DNA of 52,709 nucleotides from Prevotella sp. (lineage in GTDB: Bacteria > Bacteroidota > Bacteroidia > Bacteroidales > Bacteroidaceae): the NCBI GenBank assembly GCA_017428055.1, contig JAFRRN010000039.1, positions 1-52,709 of the forward strand, in the 5' to 3' direction. Shown piece after piece: positions 2,479 to 9,027 of the stretch. The first letter of the stretch is position 1. Every line of letters begins with the position of its first letter. Under the pieces are notes generated by a model. It saw only the letters and a program-made list of their open reading frames with translations. It searched no databases and was not told where the DNA came from. The position numbers and the translations under genes were made by a program.

Positions 2479-3483
2479 ATGGGTACAATCAACGCGATAA
2501 TCACCGGAGTGGGTGGCTATGTGCCCGATTATATCCTCAACAATGAGGAGTTGTCGCGCATGGTGGACACCAGCGACGAGTGGATCATGACGCGTGTAGG
2601 CATCAAGGAACGCCATATCCTTACCGAGGAGGGCATTGGCACAAGCTACATGGCACGTAAGGCCGCTAAGCAGTTGATAGAGAAGACGGGCGTATCCCCC
2701 GATACTATCGACGCGCTGTTGGTTGCCACGACTACTCCCGACTACAAGTTTCCCTCCACGGCATCTGTCGTCCTTGGCAAGTTAGGCTTGAAGAATGCCT
2801 TTGCCATGGACTTGTCAGCGGCTTGTGCAGGGTTTATGTATGCGATTGATATGGCCGCCTCTATGATTAAATGCGGTCGTTGCAAGAAAGTGATTGTCAT
2901 CGGAGCCGACAAGATGTCGTCGATGGTCGATTATACCGACCGTCAGACCTGTGTCCTCTTTGGCGATGGGGCAGGTGCGGTGTTGATGGAAAGGACGGAA
3001 GAGGAAGGCATTGGCGCACAAGACGCATTCTTCCGCACAGACGGCAAGGGCTTGCCCTATCTGCACATGAAAGCGGGTGGCTCTGTTTGCCCGCCATCCC
3101 ATTTCACCATTGACCATCATCTCCATTATGTCTACCAAGAGGGTCGCACCGTATTCCGCTTCGCGGTGACTAACATGGCGGATGACGTGTTAGAAATACT
3201 ACGACGCAATGAACTCGCGCAGGAAGACGTGCAATGGGTAATCCCCCATGAGGCCAATTACCGCATCATCGAGGCGGTTGCCAAGAGAGTGGACATTCCG
3301 ATGGAAAAGGTTGTTGTCAACATTGAGCGTTATGGCAACACCAGCGCGGCGACCATCCCACTTGCCCTCTGGGATCATGAATCCAAGTTGAAAAAAGGAG
3401 ACAATGTGATATTCACCGCTTTCGGCGCGGGTTTCACTCATGGTGCCTCCTTCTACAAGTGGGCATACGACGGGCAAAGGTAA
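2479..3483 (+). CDS. fabH: 3-oxoacyl-[ACP] synthase III
   Basis: A 334-residue beta-ketoacyl-ACP synthase III, which condenses an acyl-CoA primer with malonyl-ACP to start type II fatty acid synthesis in the cytoplasm. The thiolase-fold triad is complete: Cys116 in LSAACAGF, His257 in IPHEANYRI and Asn287 in YGNTSAA. The C-terminal GAGFTHGAS motif is also intact. The ATG lies 3 bp after the rpmF stop. Length is normal for the family. In Bacteroidota the enzyme often uses branched primers; that cannot be decided from sequence here. Confidence 0.96.
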   Translation: MGTINAIITGVGGYVPDYILNNEELSRMVDTSDEWIMTRVGIKERHILTEEGIGTSYMARKAAKQLIEKTGVSPDTIDALLVATTTPDYKFPSTASVVLGKLGLKNAFAMDLSAACAGFMYAIDMAASMIKCGRCKKVIVIGADKMSSMVDYTDRQTCVLFGDGAGAVLMERTEEEGIGAQDAFFRTDGKGLPYLHMKAGGSVCPPSHFTIDHHLHYVYQEGRTVFRFAVTNMADDVLEILRRNELAQEDVQWVIPHEANYRIIEAVAKRVDIPMEKVVVNIERYGNTSAATIPLALWDHESKLKKGDNVIFTAFGAGFTHGASFYKWAYDGQR

Positions 3484-4559: not shown

Positions 4560-5873
4560 ATGGCAAATTTAGTAGCAATCGTTGGACGGCCCAACGTGGG
4601 TAAGTCCACCCTTTTCAACCGATTGACACAATCCCGCCGCGCCATCGTCAGCGACGAGGCAGGCACCACCCGCGACCGCCAGTACGGCAAATGCCAATGG
4701 AACGGCGGCGAGTTCTCCGTGGTAGACACGGGCGGATGGGTTGTCAATTCCGATGACATCTTTGAGGATGCCATCCGTAAGCAAGTAACCATTGCCACAG
4801 AGGAAGCAGACCTCGTCCTCTTCATGGTAGACATCACTACGGGTGTCACAGACCTGGACCAAGACGTGGCGGCAATTCTTCGCCGATCCAAATTGCCCAT
4901 CATCCTTGTCGCCAACAAGGCGGACAACAATAGGCAATTGTATGACTCATACGAGTTCTACAGCCTTGGCCTTGGCGACCCGCATTGCATCAGCTCGGCG
5001 ACGGGAAGTGGCACTGGCGACCTCCTCGACCTTGTGATGGAGAAACTGCCAGCCGCCTCGGGCGAAATCATCGAGGACGGCATACCGCGCTTTGCTGTGG
5101 TGGGGCGTCCCAATGCGGGCAAGTCGAGCCTCATCAACTCCTTCATTGGCGAAGAACGCAACATCGTGACGGAGATTGCCGGCACCACACGCGACTCCAT
5201 CTACACCCGTTTCAACAAGTTTGGCTTCGACTTCTACCTTGTCGACACGGCGGGCATACGCCGAAAGAACAAGGTGACTGAGGACTTGGAGTTCTATAGT
5301 GTCATGCGTTCCATCCGTGCCATAGAGAACAGCGACGTGTGCATCCTGATGATTGATGCCACACGCGGTATCGAGGCACAAGACCTCAATATCTTCCAAC
5401 TTATCCAGAAAAACAACAAGTCAATGGTCGTGGTGGTCAACAAGTGGGACTTGGTGGAGAAAAAAGACAGCAAGGTCATGAAAACTTTCGAGGATGCCAT
5501 CCGCAGCCGCATGGCACCTTTCGTGGACTTCCCCATCATCTTCGCCTCCGCCCTGACTAAGCAGCGCATCTTCAAGGTCTTGGAAATGGCGCAACAAGTG
5601 TACACCAACCGCAAGGCTCGTGTTGGAACATCCAAACTCAACGAGGTGATGCTTCCTATCATCGAGGCATTCCCGCCACCATCCATCAAGGGCAAATACA
5701 TCAAGATCAAGTATTGCACCCAGTTGCCCAACACGCAGATTCCCTCTTTCGTGTTCTATGCCAACCTGCCGCAATACGTGAAAGAGCCATACAAGCGCTT
5801 CCTTGAGAACAAGATACGCGAGAACTGGTCGATGCACGGATGCCCTATCAATGTGTTCATCCGACAGAAGTAA
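4560..5873 (+). CDS. der: Ribosome biogenesis GTPase Der (EngA)
   Basis: A 437-residue protein with two tandem GTPase domains and a C-terminal KH-like domain, needed for maturation of the 50S subunit. The first P-loop is GRPNVGKST (residues 9-17) and the second GRPNAGKSS (~181-189). Each domain has its own DTGG/DTAG and NKAD/NKWD motif. Length is typical. It lies 54 bp after era on the same strand and the following lipoprotein gene starts 1 bp after its stop, so the three are probably one transcript. Confidence 0.97.
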
Positions 5874-6289: not shown

Positions 6290-6319
6290 CTGTTTACGTA
6301 TGGTAAACAGTTTGTTTTT
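6290..6319 (+). terminator. Terminator after the der-lipoprotein transcript
   Basis: CTGTTTAC (6290-6297), loop GTATG, GTAAACAG (6303-6310), then TTTGTTTTT (6311-6319). A perfect 8-bp stem followed by a T-rich tract. Confidence 0.7.
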
Positions 6320-6363
6320 GTATGGTAAACAGTTTGTTTTCCATACGCAAACAAATTGTTTAT
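6298..6363. repeat. Short direct and inverted repeats built on the terminator arm
   Basis: GTATGGTAAACAGTTTG occurs at 6298-6314 and again at 6320-6336 (22-bp period). A degraded inverted copy, AAACAAATTGTTTA, follows at about 6349-6362. The result is a small cluster of terminator-like arms. Between here and the promoter at 6471 nothing gene-like is visible. Confidence 0.6.
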
Positions 6364-6470
6364 GGTGTTTCCTCCAAGGGTGGACGGATTCATGATCATG
6401 TTTTCATACCTCCTTTGCATCTTTTATTGCATCTTTTTTGTAAAATAATCAGTAATAATCTCAAGGATTA

Positions 6471-6502
6471 TTTGTTAGCATCCATATTTTTTCATACCTT
6501 TG
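6471..6502 (+). promoter_or_regulatory. Strong promoter of the structured RNA / dockerin operon
   Basis: TTTG at 6471-6474, 20 bp, TACCTTTG at 6495-6502: full Bacteroidota consensus. Transcription should start near 6506, exactly at the foot of a hairpin (6505-6524). Confidence 0.85.
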
Positions 6503-6504
6503 TC

Positions 6505-6690
6505 ACGTGCTTTGATAAGCACGTACATTTTTATTTGCTCAATCGCTACTCGAACTGGACCCTCGAAATGTGAACGGGCAATGATTAGGAACTTGAGGCT
6601 TGTGTGTATAACGCAGGCTTTCCTAAGTTCCTAATGGGTTGGTCCAGACCTGAGTAGCGTATGGTGAAAGCCTGCGCTTTTCTTATGCCC
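6505..6690 (+). ncRNA. Highly structured RNA candidate (6S-like rod or cis-acting leader)
   Basis: Starting at the predicted transcription start there is a hairpin ACGTGCTT/AAGCACGT (6505-6524). Then a long rod: CGCTACTC (6544-6551) with GAGTAGCG (6652-6659), CTGGACC (6555-6561) with GGTCCAG (6641-6647), a very lopsided bubble (6562-6583 against 6636-6640), ATTAGGAACTT (6584-6594) with AAGTTCCTAAT (6625-6635), and GCTTGTGT (6598-6605) with ACGCAGGC (6611-6618). A competing pairing also exists: CGCAGGCTTTC (6612-6622) is perfectly complementary to GAAAGCCTGCG (6666-6676), which is followed by CTTTTCTTAT. A promoter, a rod with a large internal bubble and a size of ~180 nt recall 6S RNA; the switchable terminator-like pairing recalls a riboswitch. 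I do not recognise it as any specific family. No start codon is used inside it. Confidence 0.6.
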
Positions 6691-6753
6691 ATAAGTTTGA
6701 GGCAGGATTCTTCAGGGAACATTAACTGTTTATTAACAAATAAAAATGTGATT

Positions 6754-9027
6754 ATGAGAAAGATGTTTAATTTGATGGTAGCCGCCATAATGATGATGGC
6801 TACGTCTGCATGGGGCGCAAATGCCGCCTCGTCGATTGTGGCAGGTAAGTATTATCTGCAAAATGTTGCTACAGGACTTTACCTAAACAATGGCTCGTCT
6901 TGGGGGACTCATGCGATTGTCAATGATGTCGGACTTGAGTTTGAATTGGAAACTGAAGATGGAGGTGATGTGATGATTAAGAATAATGGATTCTTTCTTT
7001 CGCCAGATAGTGATACACATATCAATGTGTGGGTAGACTATCGTACAGAACATTATTGGAGTTTCCAAAAACTATCTGAAGGCATTTACCGCATTGGTGT
7101 CAATAATGATGGAAACCTTACGGCAGGAAGTGATAGTATTGTAAATATAGAATCGTGTACGGATGAAAATGCACAATGGAAACTCGTAACTTTAGAAGAT
7201 CGCTTAAAAGTATTGAATACGGCTACACGTGAGAATCCTGTTGATGTTTCATTCTTGATACAAGGTGCTAATTACTTTTTGCCAGATAAAGATAGAGGTG
7301 TTTATATAGGAAGTCATGATTATTGGATGGGTGACCATGGAGATAATGTCTGGCGTAATTCAAATCTTGGAGCTCATATCAATATTTTTAATAGTGAAGA
7401 CGATTATGATAAGCCTTTTAATCTTTATCAAGATTGCGAAGTGAGAAATGGTACATATAAGCTAACTGCACAAGGTTTTTATCGTGCAAAGTATAACTAC
7501 CATTTCCTCGTCTATGGCGAGACGGAAACGTTAGATGCCATCCTATATGCCAACAAGAAAGAGCAGCCTCTCGTATCTTTAATGTCGAAAGAAAACGAGT
7601 TGGAAAGATACCGTAGTGATTATTGGGGATTGAGCTGTGCTTGGCCAGGAAGTAACGAGGCTGCTGCGGACTTCTTTCATGAGGGTCTTTATGTCAACAC
7701 CATTGATGATATTGAAGTGACCGATGGTAAATTAAGAATAGGTGTGAAGGATGAAGCTACCATACAACATGGATGTTGGATGACTTGTACTAATTTCCGT
7801 TTGTATTATTATGGCGACGGGACATTGAAGGAACAGACATTAGAAACAGAAATCTTGCCCAACATGACCTATGGCGATGCGGCATTGGATTTACCCACAT
7901 CGACAGAAGAAGGATTGCCGTTGGCATGGAATAGTAATGACCCGACCATTGCCACCATAAGTGATAATATGTTGATAATCAAAAAAGCGGGAACCACAAC
8001 CATCACTGCAACGCAAGAGGGAAACGGTGATTATCTTCCATTTTCACGCGATTATACTCTTACTGTTCAAAAGGCAGAATTGACCATCAAAGCAAACAAT
8101 TGTGTCAAGAATGTGGGAGAGGCCAATCCCGAATTGACTGTGACATACGATGGTTTTAAGTATGATGACAATGAATCGTCACTCATCAAGCAACCTATCG
8201 TAACGACAACCGCAACAACCAATAGTTCCGTTGGAACTTATCCTATCACTGTCTCTGGTGCTGAATCTGACAATTACGTTTTTATTTATGTTGCAGGAAC
8301 GTTGACGGTGAAAGCACATGAGGGAGAGATTCCCTCGACAGAAATAGATATAACCGATATTGCAGGAATGGATAATGCAATCTATATTGAGCCTTTTGAT
8401 GCCCGTGTGGGAGATGATGTCGATATTGAGGTGAGACTGAAAAATGCCGAGTCGGCAACATCTTATGGTTTTGAATTGGTATTGCCAGACGGCATGAGTA
8501 TCGAGGTGAGCGATGACAATGACTTCGATTCAGAGATAACCTTTAGCGCAAGGCATAAAGACCATGTGGTGACTTCAAACAAATTAGCATCCAATATATA
8601 TAAGATAGGTGTAGCCTCTCTCAGTTCAAAAACGTTGGCTGATAATGATGGAACCGTCCTTTCCATTAAAGCACACGTTGCCGCCAATATGGTAGCGGCT
8701 CAATATCCGATAATGATTCAAAGTCCTTTATTGGTAAAAGCTGACGGTACAAAGCCAACAATGCAAGAGACTACGTCTGCTGTCACGATTGAGGATTACA
8801 TGAGGGGCGATGTCGATGATGACGGCGTAATAGATTTAGCTGACGCAGTATTGGTCATAAACTACTATGTTGGAAAACCTGTGAATAAATTTGTAGAAAA
8901 AGCCGCTGATACAGATGGCGACGGAACAATAGATCTTGCCGATGCCGTCAAGATAATCAATTACTATGTTGGTAAGACGCCAAGTCTGGCACGGGAGAAA
9001 AGACAAAACGAACGTAATCCACAATAA
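6754..9027 (+). CDS. Secreted multidomain protein with C-terminal dockerin repeats
   Basis: A 757-residue exported protein. In order: signal peptide (1-24, ending SAWGANA), a lectin-like region (~25-160, KYYLQNVATGLYLNNG), a beta-sandwich resembling a carbohydrate-binding module (~170-360), a Big-like domain (~367-438), an MBG-type beta domain (~440-525), a cohesin-like domain (~540-680) and a type I dockerin-like pair of calcium loops: GDVDDDGVIDLADA from 685 and DTDGDGTIDLADA from 719. Both loops have Asp at positions 1, 3, 5, 9 and 12. No catalytic domain is visible, so it is probably a binding or scaffold protein at the cell surface. The start is the ATG at 6754; an in-frame ATG at 6661 lies inside the structured RNA and would bury the signal peptide. 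A cohesin-like partner gene follows after 13 bp. Confidence 0.8.
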   Translation: MRKMFNLMVAAIMMMATSAWGANAASSIVAGKYYLQNVATGLYLNNGSSWGTHAIVNDVGLEFELETEDGGDVMIKNNGFFLSPDSDTHINVWVDYRTEHYWSFQKLSEGIYRIGVNNDGNLTAGSDSIVNIESCTDENAQWKLVTLEDRLKVLNTATRENPVDVSFLIQGANYFLPDKDRGVYIGSHDYWMGDHGDNVWRNSNLGAHINIFNSEDDYDKPFNLYQDCEVRNGTYKLTAQGFYRAKYNYHFLVYGETETLDAILYANKKEQPLVSLMSKENELERYRSDYWGLSCAWPGSNEAAADFFHEGLYVNTIDDIEVTDGKLRIGVKDEATIQHGCWMTCTNFRLYYYGDGTLKEQTLETEILPNMTYGDAALDLPTSTEEGLPLAWNSNDPTIATISDNMLIIKKAGTTTITATQEGNGDYLPFSRDYTLTVQKAELTIKANNCVKNVGEANPELTVTYDGFKYDDNESSLIKQPIVTTTATTNSSVGTYPITVSGAESDNYVFIYVAGTLTVKAHEGEIPSTEIDITDIAGMDNAIYIEPFDARVGDDVDIEVRLKNAESATSYGFELVLPDGMSIEVSDDNDFDSEITFSARHKDHVVTSNKLASNIYKIGVASLSSKTLADNDGTVLSIKAHVAANMVAAQYPIMIQSPLLVKADGTKPTMQETTSAVTIEDYMRGDVDDDGVIDLADAVLVINYYVGKPVNKFVEKAADTDGDGTIDLADAVKIINYYVGKTPSLAREKRQNERNPQ

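Follow-up and report, generated by a model that had tools for sequence, protein, structure and literature searches.

A rod-like RNA family with two competing, covarying folds as a candidate class of cis-acting mRNA leaders ahead of exported-protein genes in Bacteroidales

The window, by which we mean the whole stretch of 52,709 nucleotides analysed here (Prevotella sp., assembly GCA_017428055.1, contig JAFRRN010000039.1, forward strand), contains a gene for a protein with a dockerin domain, as a preliminary description of this DNA had stated, and ahead of it a compact block of self-complementary sequence (Table 1). In the encoded protein the dockerin is accompanied by a sub-threshold cohesin match on the same chain (22.1 bits, cut-off 24.1). 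An AT-rich imperfect palindrome occupies 6290-6362, in the gap that separates the upstream gene from the promoter; its 28-nt arms (6304-6331 and 6335-6362) are 86% complementary. Transcription would start near position 6505, and the RNA can be folded into a 5′ hairpin (HP5) followed by a long rod of the helices P1, P2, P3 and P4, with a lopsided bubble between P2 and P3. When the positions were rechecked, the promoter box, the hairpin, the rod helices, the competing complement and the T-rich stretch behind it were all found where they had been claimed, and so was the bubble of 22 against 5 nt. All five helices that had been called perfect are likewise present, but P4 holds two G-U pairs in the window copy, and is hence not perfect in the Watson-Crick sense.

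Table 1. Features of the window copy and its surroundings, in order along the forward strand
Feature	Position	Strand	Basis or remark
Promoter box TACCTTTG	6495-6502	+	Sequence; presumably a Bacteroidetes-type -7 box
HP5, 5′ hairpin, 8 bp, 4-nt loop	6505-6512/6517-6524	+	Folding
5′ single strand	6525-6543	+	UGCUC at 6536-6540 predicted to pair with the bubble (PK1)
P1, 8 bp	6544-6551/6652-6659	+	Own-versus-swapped partner test, covariation
P2, 7 bp	6555-6561/6641-6647	+	Own-versus-swapped partner test
Long bubble strand, 22 nt	6562-6583	+	Conserved CUCG; 3′ half of PK1, GGGCA, at 6576-6580
P3, 11 bp	6584-6594/6625-6635	+	Own-versus-swapped partner test
P4, apical hairpin, 8 bp	6598-6605 (segment a)/6611-6618 (segment b)	+	Folding, covariation
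Competing helix, 11 bp	6612-6622 (segment b)/6666-6676 (segment c)	+	Covariation
Short bubble strand, 5 nt	6636-6640	+	
GGY and RCC	Flanking the P2 3′ strand, 6641-6647	+	Mutual covariation; alternative small hairpin
Segment c	6666-6677	+	Second partner of b; terminator-like fold
TTTTCTT tract	6678-6684	+	Immediately 3′ of segment c
CAAATAAAAATGT	6737-6749	+	Fully complementary to 6525-6537; lies 5′ of the start codon
Downstream gene, 757 aa	6754-9027	+	Signal-peptide-like start; MBG and dockerin type I domains

The amount of pairing exceeds chance, as had been proposed. The folding z-score of the window copy is -5.57, with none of 200 dinucleotide shuffles equally stable, and perfect stems of 7 bp or longer number six, against a mean of 0.54 and a largest value of three among 300 such shuffles; for stems of at least 11 bp, the count is two against a mean of 0.00 and a largest value of one.

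A DNA search recovered further copies in the same genome. Six copies were aligned for a covariance model (R1) that finds eight in this genome. Applied to sampled genomes, with the own genome included each time, R1 matches 73 of 150 in the genus, 104 of 301 in the family (14 of 30 genera) and 16 of 295 in the order (14 of 184 genera). A second model, R2, matched four of 296 genomes of the phylum, the own genome among them; the three weaker matches lie outside the order, with E-values from 5.6e-9 to 8.7e-4. A pattern scan of named genomes returned at least 119 stretches, and most of those listed belong to MAGs from the rumen or gut, labelled Prevotella, Prevotellaceae, Bacteroidaceae or other Bacteroidales; 33 of the at least 119 were checked with the model and 31 confirmed. 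Across 68 loci searched with the model, two (L142 and L159) gave no match. A phage origin was considered as well: one pattern, run over viral contigs, gave three stretches, none of which the model confirmed, and these are therefore taken as chance. Individual loci deserve mention. L155 comes from a cultured isolate, Prevotella sp. ne3005. L214 carries two tandem copies of the RNA (5045-5212 and 5392-5557) ahead of a small gene; L192, on a MAG contig labelled Lachnospiraceae, holds a good copy, and L255, labelled Gammaproteobacteria, matched the pattern only, both contigs being likely misbinned. At L139, where the RNA spans 1501-1671, a cobalamin riboswitch match (3035-3171, cut by the end of the locus) lies about 1.4 kb away.

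As predicted helices, P1 to P3 covary almost perfectly. In the six own-genome copies, aligned without reference to structure, 18 of the 30 rod pairs show double changes, and 90.3% of the cells are paired, compared with 25-42% in slid controls. On R1, with 100 copies in an alignment fitted to the structure, all 30 pairs have changed on both sides and 95.8% of the cells are paired (27-53% when slid). When each strand was offered its own or swapped partners, the own partner ranked in the best 10% for 162 of 164 sequences in P1, 160 of 165 in P2 and 162 of 165 in P3, lying 26-47 sd beyond the permutations; the segments for P1 to P4 were cut from structure-fitted alignments, so that their rows lean towards the structure. 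Fixed windows, independent of the fitted alignment, were exploited for the same comparison of the 5′ and 3′ sides of the rod: the longest perfect run averages 8.07 for own pairs and 5.36 for swapped ones (sd 0.08), and a run of at least 8 occurs in 112 of 165 own pairs versus 2.4% of the swapped. The permutations do not correct for relatedness, and two control segment pairs scored 0.0 and +0.4 sd.

The rod is also almost free of G-U pairs, which make up 20 of 1265 standard pairs in P1, 0 of 1160 in P2 and 24 of 1132 in P3 (44 of 3557 in total), compared with 14.4% in P4 and 11.6% in the 5′ hairpin as folded by RNAfold. Such scarcity would fit balanced strand exchange, folding of both strands, or a process in which one arm is copied from its partner.

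The apical strand b has a second partner. In the six own-genome copies, the competing helix shows compensating changes in 5 of 11 pairs, with 92.3% of its cells paired versus 32-49% in slid controls. The alternative pairings, apart from a-b, lie outside the fitted model. In the own-versus-swapped comparison a-b, that is P4, scores -16.6 sd and the b-c core -12.5 sd, while the CCAUA-UAUGG extension of the b-c helix, imperfect in the window copy, reaches -8.3 sd. As both pairings of b covary, two mutually exclusive structures have been kept by evolution; segment b, pairing with either a or c, would thus form an expression platform exclusive with the structured domain. A T-tract of at least five T in 8 nt follows directly on c in 90 of the 99 copies scored, against a background of 5.1%, which gives the predicted b-c stem with its tract the shape of an intrinsic terminator. 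The hundredth copy (L091, RNA at 2501-2653 on the minus strand) has no segment c and was left out of this count; it lies 142 nt upstream of metK, the gene for SAM synthetase.

Two further pairings lie within the element. UGCUC, a motif of the 5′ strand, is the complement of GAGCA on the long side of the bubble (PK1), and also in the window copy the corresponding letters are complementary, a match that the preliminary description does not list. G[AG]GCA is present in 134 of the 148 copies with UGCUC, and 9 of 12 copies with an altered 5′ motif carry the exact compensating letters, two of these nine (L139 and L141) being close relatives; the 5′ motif is absent altogether in 5 of 167 copies. With its near invariance, PK1 scores a weak -2.1 sd by permutation alone. 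It is the compensated copies that support a pseudoknot of the 5′ strand with the bubble, which would explain why the bubble is lopsided. Around the 3′ strand of P2, the GGY and RCC letters covary as C-G in 44, U-A in 26 and another combination in 5 of the 75 copies scored out of 100, and the small hairpin they could form scores -13.8 sd over 150 copies; in our reading this pairing requires P2 to be open.

The position of the RNA relative to promoters and genes is regular. Of the copies in the first set 90 of 100, and in the second 59 of 67 (149 of 167 in total), have a TANNTTTG box no more than 60 nt upstream, mostly ending 15-35 nt 5′ of the core, with a background of 0.027 per 50 nt. The stretch separating box and core was examined in 149 of the 167 copies, and 148 of them have a hairpin of at least 5 bp there. 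Downstream, a same-strand ORF of at least 80 residues was found for 94 of 100 and 63 of 67 copies, and one of at least 100 residues within reach for 91 of 100 and 58 of 67, leaving 9 copies in each set where it is missing. The median distance from the end of the model to the ATG is 66.5 nt in the first set. Judging from this arrangement, the RNA appears to be part of a 5′ leader. The hairpin nearest to the gene, evaluated in 68 leaders, averages -10.6 kcal/mol with its own partner and -8.3 with swapped ones (sd 0.3), and the own combination is in the best 10% for 18 of the 68.

The genes themselves tend to encode exported proteins. With the first ATG as start, 76 of 91 and 44 of 58 targets pass a crude signal-peptide test; among neighbouring ORFs, judged by the same rule, 42 of 122 and 50 of 203 do so (Fisher p 4e-13 and 2e-12). 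With later starts allowed, the passing targets rise to 80 of 91 and 48 of 58, and the passing neighbours to 51 of 122 and 58 of 203. A lenient form of the test is passed by 21 of the 37 ORFs of the window itself. The targets that fail, 15 of 91 and 14 of 58, include metK and T5orf172 proteins. This linkage to secreted-protein genes, which had been named beforehand as a point on which the readings would part, favours a leader. One shared downstream protein family was ruled out by a Pfam scan, the families being diverse: among 91 of 94 downstream proteins, LRR_5 was found 12 times, LRR_8 11 times and LRR_4 five times, and the others among those listed (25 of 40 families) in one or two proteins each. 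A leader peptide starting at UAUGG was also considered: an AUG is present there in 147 of 167 copies, with peptides varying in frame and length among the 60 of these 147 that were read.

RNA and gene seem to travel together. For the protein downstream of the RNA at L012, 30 of the loci behind the 43 homologue matches listed were searched, and the RNA was found with all six full-length homologues of at least 50% identity and with none of the 24 others; the latter include L295 (61% identity over 87 residues) and L303, cut by a contig end. A homologue at 47% (G034:C68, L071) also has the RNA. For the L013 protein, 8 of 9 homologue loci were searched and the RNA was clear in three of them, and weak (22.5 bits) in a fourth.

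Consistent with the earlier remark that no known family was recognised, scans with Rfam gave no match on the element. Over the element itself no family reached its gathering threshold, the hits listed falling outside it; the region 6300-6900 at E-values up to 10 likewise gave no match on the element, and for ten relatives at E up to 1 the hits listed again fall outside. A known Rfam riboswitch was ruled out on this basis. The model for 6S RNA, RF00013, found no match across the own genome, while matching 6 of 14 control genomes, and a true 6S RNA was therefore not located; RF01685 is presumably the 6S-Flavo entry. The 6S-type reading put forward earlier finds no support, with no Rfam match on the element, eight copies in one genome and non-random downstream genes, linked as they are to exported proteins. 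The cis-acting switch offered beside it is instead supported by the covariation of both pairings in the family of homologues, the conserved T-tract and the linkage to genes for secreted proteins. No description of the RNA appeared in the literature searched, the reach of which ended before supplementary tables such as those of PMC8040213, where the RNA may be listed unnamed.

Aggregated, these findings make it likely, as far as comparison of sequences can tell, that the RNA is a new class of cis-acting mRNA leader, with the rod serving as antiterminator and the b-c pairing as terminator, probably switching the downstream genes on and off in an attenuator-like manner. Transcription would start right behind the TANNTTTG box, and the nascent RNA would fold the 5′ hairpin first and then the rod from P1 to P4, probably clamped by the UGCUC-GAGCA pseudoknot in the bubble. 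With the rod formed, segment b would be held in P4 and polymerase would read through into the gene, the presumed ON state. Should the rod fail to form, or be opened by some factor that targets the conserved letters of the core (CGAA, ACCUCG, GAGCA and GGY/RCC), segment b would be freed to pair with c, and the GC-rich stem with its T-tract would act as an intrinsic terminator, presumably turning the gene off. In a nested energy model, enforcing the rod gives the lower energy in 98 of 99 copies, and the mean gap to the alternative is 13.3 kcal/mol; being more stable and transcribed first, the rod is proposed as the antiterminator, and given such a preference it would take an active trigger or a kinetic effect for the terminator to form. 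The likely recognition site comprises the unpaired, conserved CGAA and ACCUCG together with the pseudoknot, and we infer one common signal for all copies.

An alternative is that the leader acts mainly on translation, the 5′ strand ACAUUUUUAUUUGCUC masking the region of the start codon, the pseudoknot releasing it and the T-tract being incidental. Over 13 nt, the 5′ strand of the window copy is indeed a perfect complement of the stretch just 5′ of the ATG at 6754, a match absent from the preliminary description, and the stem they form appears in the minimum free energy fold of the whole leader. In the 122 of 167 leaders whose start codon lies at a distance of 20-110 nt, a set that does not include the window copy, own pairing of 5′ strand and start region beats swapped pairing by 5.9 sd, with a control at +0.3 sd, and the strongest leaders form 12-13 pairs, G-U allowed, in varied registers that in some cases include the AUG. 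Perfect runs of at least 8 are however confined to 18 of the 122 leaders, versus 8.1% when swapped, and masking of the start leaves the b-c pairing and its T-tract (90 of 99) unexplained. We therefore regard translation as an unlikely main target; the data rather suggest a second, translational layer in a subset of the leaders, the window included.

A small RNA acting in trans, whether a 6S-like mimic for polymerase or another type, could end at the b-c terminator, with the genes reached by read-through or adjacent by chance. It would account for the promoter box of its own, the stable 5′ hairpin and the terminator-like end, but we hold it to be very unlikely given the eight copies in one genome, the non-random genes (median distance 66.5 nt for the first set), and the failure of RF00013 and every other Rfam family to match; furthermore, a constitutive small RNA would not need two competing folds. 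That the inverted repeats serve as DNA hairpins of a mobile or DNA-level element, such as a MITE or a recombination site, strikes us as most improbable, despite the multi-copy, patchy distribution and the near lack of G-U pairs in P1 to P3, which would be expected if both strands fold. The G-U shares of P4 and the 5′ hairpin rather suggest that this strand folds as RNA; similarity begins near the promoter box and stops before the start codon, and the rod sequences vary widely among copies.

Returning to the antiterminator reading, a broader version of it would be a pseudoknotted switch found throughout the order, coupling a large and rapidly changing set of orphan surface and secreted proteins of Bacteroidales to one signal by strand exchange, with a translational lock in some copies. 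The G-U-poor rod may then reflect a requirement of the exchange for Watson-Crick strands in exact balance, or folding of the opposite strand as well. This we put forward tentatively, as a possibility to which we would give somewhat less than even chances. If the leader reading is right, abundant bacteria of the rumen and gut possess a widespread gene-control RNA that Rfam lacks, and the exported proteins behind it, mostly without a known domain, may form a shared regulon.

Compared with known systems, the RNA resembles riboswitches and transcription attenuators in its presumed 5′ leader position, conserved core, covarying stems and pseudoknot, in one strand being common to two stems and in the T-tract after the alternative stem. 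It differs from them in having no Rfam match, in preceding mostly unrelated exported-protein genes rather than those of one pathway, and in that the rod and not the terminator is the stabler fold of the nested model. With 6S RNA it shares a rod of about 180 nt, an asymmetric bubble and a place behind a promoter box, whereas the lack of a covariance-model match, the eight copies, the linkage to genes and the second covarying fold set it apart. Type III toxin-antitoxin loci are built from a promoter, a pseudoknotted RNA, a terminator and then the gene, an order that the RNA described here would follow; in contrast to these systems, nearly all loci carry a single RNA unit, tandem copies being seen at L214 only, and the genes that follow encode no common protein family.
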